The translations under genes were made by a program, and so were the position numbers. The notes below the pieces were generated by a model. That model did no database searches and was not told the DNA's origin. It was given only the letters and a program-made list of their open reading frames with translations. This document shows positions 2,966 to 9,782 of a stretch of 64,000 bases of DNA, one piece after another. Numbering within the stretch: the stretch's first letter is position 1; each line of letters opens with the position of its first letter. Origin of the DNA: Puniceicoccaceae bacterium (GTDB taxonomy: Bacteria > Verrucomicrobiota > Verrucomicrobiia > Opitutales > JAFGAQ01); NCBI GenBank assembly GCA_028285755.1, contig JANQOQ010000014.1, forward strand, positions 124,001-188,000, in the 5' to 3' direction.

Positions 2966-3586
2966 TTACCGACTCGCCAGGCGGGTGGGCTTTTCGTATT
3001 TGCTGGCGAGGCGCAGGGTGGATGAGTAATCAAAGTCCTGCGGATTGGTGTAGGTGAGCTGAAATTGGGGGTCATTCGGGTTGCTGAGATCGAGCACGAG
3101 GTTGATGAGAATCTCATCACGCTGCCAATAAGTGTTTATGGCCTTGTTGCCTGCGATGATATCAGATTCAAAGTTAGCCGGGTTGTTCGAAGCCGCGAAA
3201 GAGCGGTTCGCATACACGGTGTTGGTGGCGGCACCATACTCTTTTTCAAGCTGGCGAATGATTTCCTGATAGCTCAGGTATGCAGCCTCATTTGCACTTG
3301 CAGCTGCGGGTTGATCCGCAGTTGCAAACTTGTAGAGCGCCTTACCGAGCTGGCGGTGGCGATTAAAGTGAGTGACCAATTGGGCACGGATGCCTGAGAA
3401 ATTGCCTTCGTGGATCATTCCTGAGATGTATTGCTGCTCCGGGTTACCATGAATGGCGATGATGTCATCCTGAGTCATTCCCCAGTCTGCCTGATGAAAG
3501 TCCTGTGCGGACAGATTGATAAGGGTGGCTTGCATGATGAACAGGCCGATGGCGACGAGGCGTTTAATGATATTTGGCGTTTTCAT
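2966..3586 (-). CDS. Exported protein of the F-x-x-x-W-G-M family (copy B)
   Basis: 206 residues with a signal peptide (hydrophobic stretch RLVAIGLFIMQATLINLSAQ, cleavage probably after SAQ). The mature protein opens DFHQADWGMTQDDIIAIHG, matching copies A, C and D at W-G-M-x3-D-x-I. It keeps the central L-E-K-E-Y-G element and a W-x-R-D-E-I-L-I-N-L strand followed by F-Q-L-T-Y-T, then adds a longer basic C-terminal tail. It is separated from the downstream-oriented lipoprotein gene by 39 bp and both point leftward, so they may share a transcript. Function unknown; likely periplasmic. Confidence 0.8.
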   Translation of the reverse strand: MKTPNIIKRLVAIGLFIMQATLINLSAQDFHQADWGMTQDDIIAIHGNPEQQYISGMIHEGNFSGIRAQLVTHFNRHRQLGKALYKFATADQPAAASANEAAYLSYQEIIRQLEKEYGAATNTVYANRSFAASNNPANFESDIIAGNKAINTYWQRDEILINLVLDLSNPNDPQFQLTYTNPQDFDYSSTLRLASKYEKPTRLASR

Positions 3587-4659: not shown

Positions 4660-6369
4660 TCAGGGGTTTGTGGTTTTATGGGTGACGATATACATACCCG
4701 GGTCAGTGGCATGCCATTCGTGTGGAAAGGAATGCTCGGCATAGTCATCTGCCAGCAGGTTAACGACGGTGCAGGCACCTGCGTGACCTTCACCCGCTTT
4801 TTCAATGAGCCGGTGCGTGGATTGGGATGAGCTGAGAGTCTTCCCGTGCTTAGCCCATTTGAGTGAATTCTTAAAATGGCGCTCCGTCCATTCCAACGCA
4901 TTGCGGTGCCAATGGGCGTGTGGGTAGGGCAGGGACCCTCTGGAGACGAGGTCGCTACCGTCCGGGTAGGGTGTATCCGGCAGAATCGCCTGGATTTGCA
5001 TAATACCCCCTGCGAATAATCCATGCATACGCATGCGGAATTGTTCCCACTCGGTGATGTTGCGATCGGGGCCGTTGCCCGGATTTTTATAAAGTTCGGT
5101 TTGCCGGTAGATATCGGTAGCACCGATGGGCTTATGGTTGCTTTGACTGCGTAGTGCAATTAACTGCTCATGCTCAGGGCGGATGAGCTCCCACTCAAGG
5201 AGACTTAGGTCCCCGGGTAACTGTGTGGGAAAGTGCAAACCATTGACGCGGTTGGCCCGCACCCCTCGCAGACTTTGCTCCCCAAAGAGGCTGCGTATAC
5301 GATCCGCCCATTTGTGGGTACCGGTATGTGCGATCGTTGGATCGTGCCACATATCCCACCCCATACGATGGATGATATTTGGCAAATCCTTGAGCTCAGA
5401 TGCGAGCCTATCATAAACTTCCGCCTCGGCTGGCGAATCGTAGCCAAACGCCTTCGCTGGATGGCCACCCCATGCCAGCTGCCCCCAGTATAGCAGATCC
5501 AGAAACATGTGGCGTTCGTTCAACGCATGGGCCAGTTCGGTTATTGCATCGAGGGCAGCTGAATTCAGTTTGTGTGGAGTTATTTTGGTAAATTGCAAAG
5601 TACCGGGAGTGAAGAATTCCGCCTGGGGGTTGATCGTCAGGCCGTTGCAGCCCTGCCCACGCACCCAATCGCAATAGGCACCGATATTGGGTGTCTCGGG
5701 AGTGCGGTGCTTAAGCTGTTGCAGATGGGCGATTTCCGGTCCTCTGAGAAGGTGCGGATGCACGGCTTTGCCCCCGAGCTGGAAGTAGGCGGGGTTTACT
5801 TGCGAGGCGGGGCTCCCGGGAGCCTGTCCTATCTCAATACGCTGGCGGGCTTCTTCACTTTCGGCCAGCTCGCGCGCAAGGGCACCGATAGTGATCTCCC
5901 CTTCAATCAGTCGCCGGGAGCGGGCCCGGATTTCATCTTCGTTTGGCTCACGTGCAAGAATGAGACGATACTTTTGCCGGATGGCGTGTTGCCCGATCGC
6001 ACTTTCAACAATCCCACGACGCAGCTCCTGGAGGTCCAGGGGTAGGGGAGCCTCTGACCCGGGAAGGAGGGCCTGGAGCTGGTCTTGCCGTGGGCTGCGT
6101 GCAACGATCGATCGGTAGATATCGGCAATGGCATTCGGGTGGAGCGTGTGTATATATTCTCTGAGGTTGGATACTTCCTGCGAATTCCCATTGCCGGCTG
6201 GAAACTCCGGGCATTTTGCTTGCAGCGCTTGCACACTTAGCTGCAGCTTGCCCAGCAACCGTGCCAATTCACCGATTGTGCTTTCAATGCTCGCTATATC
6301 CCGCTTGCAGATAGAATAGGCGGGCTTGGATTCGGAGTTGATAATGGGTTGTGGCGGCTGGGTTTCCAT
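4660..6369 (-). CDS. DUF4214-like domain plus TIM-barrel-like protein
   Basis: 569 residues, no signal peptide. Residues about 20-65 form a coiled coil (IASIESTIGELARLLGKLQL). Residues about 70-190 contain two repeats of the type Y-R-x2-L-x-R-x-P ... L-x-x-G ... S-E (IYRSIVARSPRQDQ, YRLILAREPNEDEI, ELAESEEARQ), typical of DUF4214, a domain often attached to glycosyltransferases and surface proteins. The C-terminal ~370 residues have glycosidase-barrel features (DAITELAHALNERHMFLDLL, IIHRMGWDMWHDPTIAHTG, EWELIRPEHEQL) but I cannot name catalytic residues with confidence. The combination suggests a polysaccharide-related cytosolic or non-classically exported protein. Flanked by a lipoprotein gene and a histidine kinase in the same direction. 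Confidence 0.55.
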   Translation of the reverse strand: METQPPQPIINSESKPAYSICKRDIASIESTIGELARLLGKLQLSVQALQAKCPEFPAGNGNSQEVSNLREYIHTLHPNAIADIYRSIVARSPRQDQLQALLPGSEAPLPLDLQELRRGIVESAIGQHAIRQKYRLILAREPNEDEIRARSRRLIEGEITIGALARELAESEEARQRIEIGQAPGSPASQVNPAYFQLGGKAVHPHLLRGPEIAHLQQLKHRTPETPNIGAYCDWVRGQGCNGLTINPQAEFFTPGTLQFTKITPHKLNSAALDAITELAHALNERHMFLDLLYWGQLAWGGHPAKAFGYDSPAEAEVYDRLASELKDLPNIIHRMGWDMWHDPTIAHTGTHKWADRIRSLFGEQSLRGVRANRVNGLHFPTQLPGDLSLLEWELIRPEHEQLIALRSQSNHKPIGATDIYRQTELYKNPGNGPDRNITEWEQFRMRMHGLFAGGIMQIQAILPDTPYPDGSDLVSRGSLPYPHAHWHRNALEWTERHFKNSLKWAKHGKTLSSSQSTHRLIEKAGEGHAGACTVVNLLADDYAEHSFPHEWHATDPGMYIVTHKTTNP

Positions 6370-6486: not shown

Positions 6487-7719
6487 TTATTGCGCAGGTA
6501 TATTCGAGGGCAAAGATAAAGTAAAGGTAGAGCCTTTGCCTTCTTTGGATTTCACTCTCAATTTTCCCTGGTTCATTTCAGCATATTCTTTCGCGATGAG
6601 CAGCCCAAATCCAATGCCAGATTCGCTATCGGTTCCGAGGGTGTTATTGTGTATGGTCGATACAAAGAGCTCGTTGAGTTTCTTTGAAGATATGCCCACA
6701 CCGTTATCAATGACATCAATCTGGATATTTTTTTTCTTTGTGCCGATATGAATGCCTACCGTACCTCCATTATGGGTAAATTTGATGGCATTCGTCAGTA
6801 AATGACTCAGTATCGCGTGCAGCATATACCGGTCGGCATAGACTTTGAGCTCGCGATCGCCCAGTTGTTTGAGCGATATGGATTTTTTGACTGCGAGCGG
6901 ATTCAACTTTTCGAGCAGTTTATCAACGACACGATCCAACTCGATTACGATCGGTTGACAATCAATCTTCCCGTGCTGACATGCTGCCCATTCCAGGATT
7001 TCATCCAGCATATGTGTGGCCGAATTTGCAGAACGCTGGATGATTTTGGCCATCTCTGAATATTCTGCATGGGTGACATTGTCCAGCCGATCTGCGAGTA
7101 AATTCGAAAACCCGTTGATACTATTGAAGGGTGCGCGCAGATCATTCGCCACCGCATAGAAAAACTTATCCTGCTTTGCGATAGTCTCCTGCATATGCCG
7201 GGTGTATTTCTGCAATTGATTATGGGCCGCGCGCAGCTCAAACAGATTCATCACCTGCTCTGCAATCGTCTCCAGCATGTCCAGTTCTTCATCGGCAATC
7301 TCCCGGGCTTGCGTATCCATCACACACAGAGTGCCCAGCGCATGTCCATGGGGATCAACCAAGGGGATTCCTGCGTAAAATCGTACGTGAGGCTCGCCGG
7401 TTACCAGGGGATTGTCTGCAAATCGCTCGTCGAGCTGAGCATCTTCGACAACCATAGCATCCTCATGCAATATGGCATGCGCACAAAATGCGATCTCCCG
7501 CTTCGTTTCGGTCTGATTCATGCCGATACAGGATTTAAACCACTGCCGATTTTTGTCGACCAGGCTGACCAAAGATATCGGGGTGTGACATACCTTACTC
7601 GCCAAAGCCGTTAGGCGGTCATAAGCATCTTCAAATTCGGTATCCAGCAATTCATAGCTGAGTAGAGCTTCAATGCGTGCTTCTTCGTTTGCAGTCGGTG
7701 GTGCAGAGATCATAGACAA
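6487..7719 (-). CDS. GAF-domain histidine-kinase homologue with Asn at the phospho-acceptor site
   Basis: A soluble 410-residue protein. Residues about 15-165 are a GAF domain of the type found in cyanobacterial and proteobacterial sensors (RIEALLSYELLDTEFEDAYD, CAHAI, GTLCVMD). Residues 183-250 correspond to HisKA, but the H-box reads F-F-Y-A-V-A-N-D-L-R-A-P, so the usual His is Asn192 (codon AAT). The ATPase domain looks intact: N-box LLTNAIKFT (~308), D-N-G-V-G-I (~338), and G-I-G-F-G-L (~368). It therefore may bind or hydrolyse ATP but should not autophosphorylate at the standard site; a pseudokinase or a partner-activating role is possible. No response regulator gene adjoins it. Confidence 0.85.
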   Translation of the reverse strand: MSMISAPPTANEEARIEALLSYELLDTEFEDAYDRLTALASKVCHTPISLVSLVDKNRQWFKSCIGMNQTETKREIAFCAHAILHEDAMVVEDAQLDERFADNPLVTGEPHVRFYAGIPLVDPHGHALGTLCVMDTQAREIADEELDMLETIAEQVMNLFELRAAHNQLQKYTRHMQETIAKQDKFFYAVANDLRAPFNSINGFSNLLADRLDNVTHAEYSEMAKIIQRSANSATHMLDEILEWAACQHGKIDCQPIVIELDRVVDKLLEKLNPLAVKKSISLKQLGDRELKVYADRYMLHAILSHLLTNAIKFTHNGGTVGIHIGTKKKNIQIDVIDNGVGISSKKLNELFVSTIHNNTLGTDSESGIGFGLLIAKEYAEMNQGKLRVKSKEGKGSTFTLSLPSNIPAQ

Positions 7720-8684: not shown

Positions 8685-9239
8685 ATGGGGAGAATTCCGC
8701 AAATTACCCTCTGTCTGTTACTTACAGGATCTTTCGTGTTCCCTGCATGGGGCGCACACTTTCGCCGAAGTTCCTGGGGTATGAATATGGATGCGATCAT
8801 CGAGTATGAGGGCCAGCCCAAACTATTGACGCGTACTACACTGCATTACGACGGCATCGTCGCGGGATTGAAGGCTGAGGTCGAATACCGTTTCAACCCA
8901 CAGGGCTTTTTTAAGGGCACCTATATATTGAGCGACCGCCTCCCTGAGCGCCGTCAGTACATCGATGAATTTATGCAGCTTGAGGAACTCCTCATCCTCA
9001 AATACGGAAAGCCCGTGGAACAACGTGAAATGTGGTTTAACGATGAATTTAAACAAGACCTCGGGTACCGGCTCGATGCGCTCTTACTCGGTCATGTCAG
9101 CTACTGGAGCACCTGGTTGCTCGAGAGCTCGATTGTGCAGCTCAAACTCTTTCGGTACGGCAACGGGGTAAACTTCACACTCGAGTATACGCCGAGCTCC
9201 GGGCGCAAAAATGCTGAAAATCCCCTCCTCACTTTGTAA
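8685..9239 (+). CDS. Exported protein of the F-R-x3-W-G-M family (copy C)
   Basis: 184 residues with a signal peptide ending at PAWGAH. The mature part starts FRRSSWGMNMDAIIEYEG, then has the shared central L-K-Y-G-K-P element and a W-S-T-W-L-L-E-S-S-I-V-Q-L strand pattern ending F-T-L-E-Y-T-P. It lies only 12 bp upstream of copy D, and the pair is almost certainly one transcript and a tandem duplication. Start ATG 8685 is chosen because it gives the signal peptide. Role unknown. Confidence 0.8.
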   Translation: MGRIPQITLCLLLTGSFVFPAWGAHFRRSSWGMNMDAIIEYEGQPKLLTRTTLHYDGIVAGLKAEVEYRFNPQGFFKGTYILSDRLPERRQYIDEFMQLEELLILKYGKPVEQREMWFNDEFKQDLGYRLDALLLGHVSYWSTWLLESSIVQLKLFRYGNGVNFTLEYTPSSGRKNAENPLLTL

Positions 9240-9251
9240 ATAGAGTCACAG

Positions 9252-9782
9252 ATGAAACACCTCCTCTCCAGTATCGCTTTGCTTTGCGCATTCAGCGTAT
9301 TCGCACAGGCACCCGACTTCCGGCAAATGAACTGGGGTATGACTCGCGATGCAGTCATCGCGACGGAGGCCGGGGAACCTTATGAGCACACCACTGAGAT
9401 CAGCTACCTGGGGTACATGGGGGGGCTGCCGGTGCGTATCATCTACGGCTTCAACAGCCTGGATCAGCTCAGTTCTAGCCATTGTGAGTTTTTTCTCACC
9501 GACTTGGAAGCCAGTGATCTCATCGAAAATCACAAGCGCCTCGAGCAGCAGCTCACGCGTAAATACGGGCCACCCATTGACAGTAAAATGCTCTGGTATG
9601 ATGAGCTCCTGAAGGATGAGGTGGAGCTCCTGCCTTATGCGCTCGAAAAAGGCTACGTCGGCATCCACAGTACCTGGAAGACTGCGACCACCATCATCGC
9701 ACTGCGCCTCACCGGCAGCCGCGAGACCGGCCTACGCCTCGTCCTCCTCTACGACCCCACCGACCTCACGCACATCAAGTAG
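9252..9782 (+). CDS. Exported protein of the F-R-x3-W-G-M family (copy D)
   Basis: 176 residues, signal peptide MKHLLSSIALLCAFSVFAQA, mature part DFRQMNWGMTRDAVIATEAG. The central element is TRKYGPP and the C-terminal strand pattern STWKTATTIIALRLTG then LRLVLLYDP. It is closest to copy A in the D-F-R-x2-N-W-G-M opening although copy A is on the other strand 8.5 kb away. Immediately follows copy C. No catalytic residues or metal ligands stand out; a binding or structural periplasmic role is likelier than enzymatic, as inference. Confidence 0.8.
   Translation: MKHLLSSIALLCAFSVFAQAPDFRQMNWGMTRDAVIATEAGEPYEHTTEISYLGYMGGLPVRIIYGFNSLDQLSSSHCEFFLTDLEASDLIENHKRLEQQLTRKYGPPIDSKMLWYDELLKDEVELLPYALEKGYVGIHSTWKTATTIIALRLTGSRETGLRLVLLYDPTDLTHIK

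Follow-up and report, generated by a model that had tools for sequence, protein, structure and literature searches.

A gene on the minus strand of the window, the 64,000-nucleotide stretch of DNA that was analysed, encodes a soluble GAF-domain protein with the architecture of a histidine kinase in which Asn occupies the phospho-acceptor position and His occupies the first position of the N box. The protein is best explained as a pseudo-histidine kinase in which canonical autophosphorylation has very probably been lost, and the whole account, in which it acts by protein contact in the manner of DivL, is favoured with modest confidence. The contact model is preferred because the acceptor His, the first N-box Asn and the Thr or Asn at the phosphatase position (+4 from the acceptor) are all absent while the fold and the sensor are kept. 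Counting against it are the occurrence of the protein in one genome, a neighbourhood that indicates no partner, and the observation that His at position 306 need not inactivate a kinase.

The reading frame is open and without internal stop, and all three domains score above the Pfam cut-off (Table 1). Residue numbering counts from the upstream TTG, and the ATG six nucleotides further in is the more likely start codon. An AlphaFold model of the 408 residues from this ATG, built with 37 sequences in the alignment, has a mean pLDDT of 92.1 and forms the dimerization and histidine phosphotransfer (DHp) domain from helices 141-208 and 215-246 in the 408-residue numbering. Among solved structures, the GAF part is closest in fold to the diguanylate cyclase DcsBis (4zmu, Z 28.3). 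Structural matches to the kinase core include HK853 (Z 25), DivL (Z 24.4) and HK853-RR468 complexes.

Table 1. Coordinates in the window of the pseudo-histidine kinase gene, the domains of its product and the catalytic positions
Feature	Position	Strand	Basis or remark
GAF-HisKA-HATPase_c protein, pseudo-histidine kinase	6487..7719	-	410 aa (TTG 7719) or 408 aa (ATG 7713)
GAF domain, residues 29-157	7249..7635	-	Pfam PF01590, E 5e-18
HisKA / DHp domain, residues 183-245	6985..7173	-	Pfam PF00512, E 2.9e-8
Asn192 (AAT), phospho-acceptor position	7144..7146	-	His in 96/96 homologues
Asp193, acidic residue after acceptor, kept	7141..7143	-	alignment
Ala196, +4 phosphatase position	7132..7134	-	alignment; rule from PMC3510030
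HATPase_c / CA domain, residues 296-405	6505..6834	-	Pfam PF02518, E 4.2e-22
His306 (CAT), first N-box position	6802..6804	-	Asn in 95/96 homologues
Asn310, second N-box Asn, kept	6790..6792	-	alignment

The H-box reads FFYAVANDLRAP, and the AAT codon that the preliminary description had placed at residue 192 is confirmed. Its statement that known kinases carry His there holds throughout an alignment of 96 kinase cores drawn from a GTDB contig scan, genome searches and the same genome. The acceptor His is absent and the acidic residue that follows it is present. An apparent Ala at the acceptor position in L039#0 belongs to a misaligned non-kinase stretch, which was excluded, and Asn541 of WalK (PMC11371814), which could not be assigned to an alignment column, was left out of the comparison. 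In the source genome, where the kinase census comprises the best 30 loci, all 30 of the other kinase domains covering the acceptor position have His. The closest homologues found, L113 (42% identity) and L105 and L106 (37%), have H-boxes reading AHDLRSP or SHDLRSP. A search of the DHp domain for a nearby alternative acceptor, which had been raised beforehand as a way in which the reading could fail, found no other His that is conserved among the aligned homologues.

An Asn-bearing relative was sought in genomes of relatives and of the family, order, class and phylum as well as in the GTDB contig scan, and only His-bearing homologues were found. At the DNA level, the Asn version of the H-box pattern gives 17 matches in 16 of 343 genomes of the order, a count similar to that of a reversed-pattern control, and the match in the window gene is the only one that can be recognised as the H-box of a kinase. 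Two of them (L115, L116) lie downstream of a normal H-box within ordinary kinases, a second match in the source genome (L131, FLRNISNEIRHP) lies in a 29-codon frame and was treated as chance, and three others (L128, L129, L130) have H-box-like letters in frames of only 113-145 codons. Two of these short frames, L129 (145 codons, genome G175) and L130 (138 codons, genome G106), come from small genomes of the order and contain the Asn string FIxVxANDVRSP. The His version of the pattern gives about 235 matches in 87 genomes, whereas its reversed control yields only a handful. With about 235 His matches set against a single recognisable H-box with Asn, these pattern counts suggest that, among H-boxes of such shape in the order, Asn would be present in no more than roughly one of several hundred.

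The ATP-binding site is less complete than first described. The preliminary description had found the N, G1 and G2 boxes intact, and this is correct for G1 (D338, G340, G342), for the G2 glycines (G370, G372) and for Asn310, but not for the N box as a whole, which has one Asn of two, with His306 at the other position. Of the 17 kinase-core columns conserved to at least 90%, the protein differs at exactly two, 192 and 306. In CpxA, Glu249 bridges His248 and Asn356 by hydrogen bonds and activates the His, and the N356Y variant is kinase-deficient (PMC3904827). The equivalent triad of His, acid and Asn becomes Asn192-Asp193-His306 here, an exact exchange of the outer residues around a retained acid. 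A His in the first position of the N box is uncommon, with seven matches versus about 646 for Asn in 87 genomes of the order (about 1% of N-boxes of this shape; these counts and that of the His H-boxes are sums over result tables). Four of the seven (L162, L163, L165, L168) belong to the HisKA type and have a normal acceptor His, and two are of the LytS type; in the source genome, L156 (C2:639239-639667) likewise combines His at this position with a normal acceptor. As HisKA kinases with the equivalent of His306 keep their acceptor His, the N306H change need not inactivate a kinase. Its presence in the one acceptor-less kinase is notable and, if the two changes were independent, would amount to a coincidence of roughly 1% on these counts. 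Among other kinase matches of the same genome, L143 has Glu at the first N-box position, like the GHKL ATPases, and L149 (C2:438258) and L152 (C2:765111) each have one TAA inside the frame.

The exchanged triad bears on two further explanations that assign an enzymatic activity to the protein. It could be a half-kinase, still able to bind ATP, that dimerises with a different kinase and, as the catalytic subunit, phosphorylates in trans the His of that partner. Kinases that lack an acceptor are able to trans-phosphorylate a partner subunit, and the protein keeps the catalytic Asp193 as well as Asn310, G1 and G2. Heterodimer formation with HrrS by the ChrS pseudokinase, which is CA-inactivated and not acceptor-less, offers a further parallel (PMC9491836). 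Such a role is nevertheless considered improbable, since His306 stands in place of the acid-positioning Asn, whose substitution (N356Y in CpxA, N343K in EnvZ) abolishes kinase activity (PMC3904827, PMC8971529), and since the genome contains no close paralogue, the best other match reaching 33% identity over the kinase region only. A second explanation is a rearranged active site in which His306 either accepts the phosphate or acts as the general base in ATP hydrolysis and Asn192 takes over the role formerly held at position 306, yielding a GAF-controlled enzyme with a reversed triad. The exact exchange of the outer residues with retention of the acid fits this arrangement, as does the Glu that acts as general base at the equivalent of residue 306 in GHKL ATPases (PMC3904827). 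It is given very little weight, as equivalents of His306 are found in kinases with a normal acceptor and it is not obvious how a phosphate carried by the ATP-binding domain would reach a receiver. We know of no precedent for a triad rearranged in this way; activity of His306 would represent a new way of running the histidine kinase fold.

Acceptor-His mutants of HisKA kinases often retain phosphatase activity, and the protein could in principle function solely to dephosphorylate a response regulator. Phosphatase-competent HisKA kinases require Thr or Asn at +4 from the acceptor (PMC3510030), a requirement that the protein fails with Ala196, and a phosphatase-only function is accordingly regarded as highly unlikely. 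The +4 residue of the 96 homologues is Thr in 60, Ser in 20, Asn in six, Met in five, Gly in three and Ala in two. As Ala and Ser also occur in His-bearing homologues, Ala at this position is not specific to the pseudokinase, and the absence of Thr or Asn is not rare in its homologues.

Outside these positions the gene is well kept, in agreement with the earlier view that it is not obviously decaying and that its GAF domain is intact. The GAF domain retains all 28 listed positions that are conserved to at least 90% across 84 homologues, and one further column, 90% Leu, is Ile in the pseudokinase. Cys79 (window 7483-7485) and Cys132 (7324-7326) are invariant or nearly so in this GAF subfamily (84 and 83 of 84), as are R74 and Y115. 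The ratio of CA to GAF divergence is 0.66, within the range of 0.53-0.94 for the relatives, and the terminal branch is not unusually fast, at 0.92 changes per site where the median is 0.74. GAF conservation, divergence ratio and branch length all argue against long neutral decay.

A more recent loss is a different matter. The gene may be a recently inactivated kinase, or the assembly may contain a base-call error, such that the protein was until recently, or still is, an ordinary GAF kinase with no new function. A single base separates each altered codon from one for the usual residue (AAT from CAT and CAT from AAT), the relatives all have His, and no Asn relative emerged from the H-box pattern in the 343 genomes. 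His-bearing relatives had been named beforehand as a sign of recent mutation, and they are what is found; with identities of at most 42%, however, they are too distant to show a recent change. As Asn192 and His306 are known from one genome, the changes sit on a singleton branch and may reflect a recent inactivation. On the other side stand two separate catalytic changes together with Ala at +4, in a gene with an open frame, 15 of 17 conserved kinase columns, an intact sensor and no acceleration of its branch. One base error would be insufficient for both changes, and errors at two catalytic codons together are unlikely. Recent inactivation or error is overall rated as unlikely, although it carries appreciable weight.

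The genomic surroundings point to no partner. Directly downstream on the same strand lies a gene for an uncharacterised His-rich protein of 569 residues (4660-6369), which has no Pfam or NCBIfam family above the cut-off and no match in a plasmid collection. Upstream and divergent are uncharacterised small proteins. Three related small proteins flank the kinase gene on both sides (2966-3586 on the minus strand, 8685-9239 and 9252-9782 on the plus strand) and share 22-28% mutual identity (E down to 3e-18) and a start resembling FRxxxWGMxxDAI, without a match in Pfam. The neighbours scanned on either side are uncharacterised or are of types such as hydrolase and acetyltransferase, with no response regulator or second kinase recognised among them, and no neighbour recurs beside the fetched homologues. 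With no partner gene recognised among the scanned neighbours, the pseudokinase is classed as an orphan. No RNA families were found in the region, and scans for promoters and terminators yielded no signal that exceeded shuffled sequences.

In the contact model, the pseudokinase would neither autophosphorylate at residue 192, as suggested by its sequence and the cited work on related kinases, nor dephosphorylate a response regulator, given Ala196 (PMC3510030). The missing first N-box Asn is the residue that pairs with the catalytic acid across the interface of the DHp and CA domains. The domain for dimerisation and receiver docking, the ATP-binding fold and the sensor are retained, and a signal perceived by the GAF domain would presumably change the shape of the DHp dimer. 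As output, the protein may bind and sequester a response regulator encoded elsewhere, or read its phosphorylation state, as DivL does with DivK~P; alternatively, its partner may be another kinase, of which the cell has roughly 30. Action by binding of a receiver or a kinase is inferred by analogy with DivL and with a catalytically dead EnvZ, and the earlier proposal of signalling through protein contact is plausible in light of DivL. Few natural pseudo-histidine kinases have been characterised, and annotation pipelines label them as kinases. With changes at three of the positions that are mutated in the laboratory to silence kinase and phosphatase activity, two of them an exact exchange within the triad, the protein offers a simple test of the role left to a histidine kinase fold that has lost its chemistry.

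Among known systems, CpxA and the canonical HisKA kinases share the domains, fold and motif layout of the pseudokinase and differ in the triad, which is His248-Glu249-Asn356 in CpxA and Asn-Asp-His here. The GAF-HisKA kinases of the same order, the phylum and the Bacteroidota (L113, L105, L079, L012 and others) have the same architecture and length and mostly 35-42% identity to the pseudokinase, and unlike it all carry the acceptor His and the N-box Asn. The ChrS pseudokinase of laboratory-evolved Corynebacterium glutamicum is an inactivated kinase that acts through its paralogue HrrS, with which it forms heterodimers (PMC9491836); it differs in that it arose in the laboratory through a frameshift in the CA domain. 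The engineered EnvZ variant H243A/D244A/T247A/N343K, from which all activity was removed, still lowered OmpR output, maybe by sequestration according to its authors (PMC8971529). Three of its four altered positions (acceptor, +4 and first N-box residue) are also altered in the pseudokinase, whereas the EnvZ variant is a laboratory construct with other substitutions and lacks the acidic residue that the pseudokinase keeps. The Caulobacter pseudo-histidine kinase DivL has neither kinase nor phosphatase activity and works by binding DivK~P (PMC4211667). Like the pseudokinase it has a HisKA-HATPase_c core with a residue other than His at the acceptor position in an otherwise preserved fold; its acceptor residue is a Tyr conserved in DivL orthologues, whereas the Asn is known from one genome, and it has PAS sensors and an N box described as retained in place of the GAF sensor, the N-box His and the lack of an indicated partner seen here. 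No description of a soluble GAF protein combining an Asn acceptor with a His N box was found in the open-licence literature; pseudo-histidine kinases are a known kind of protein, of which the present one is a variant.
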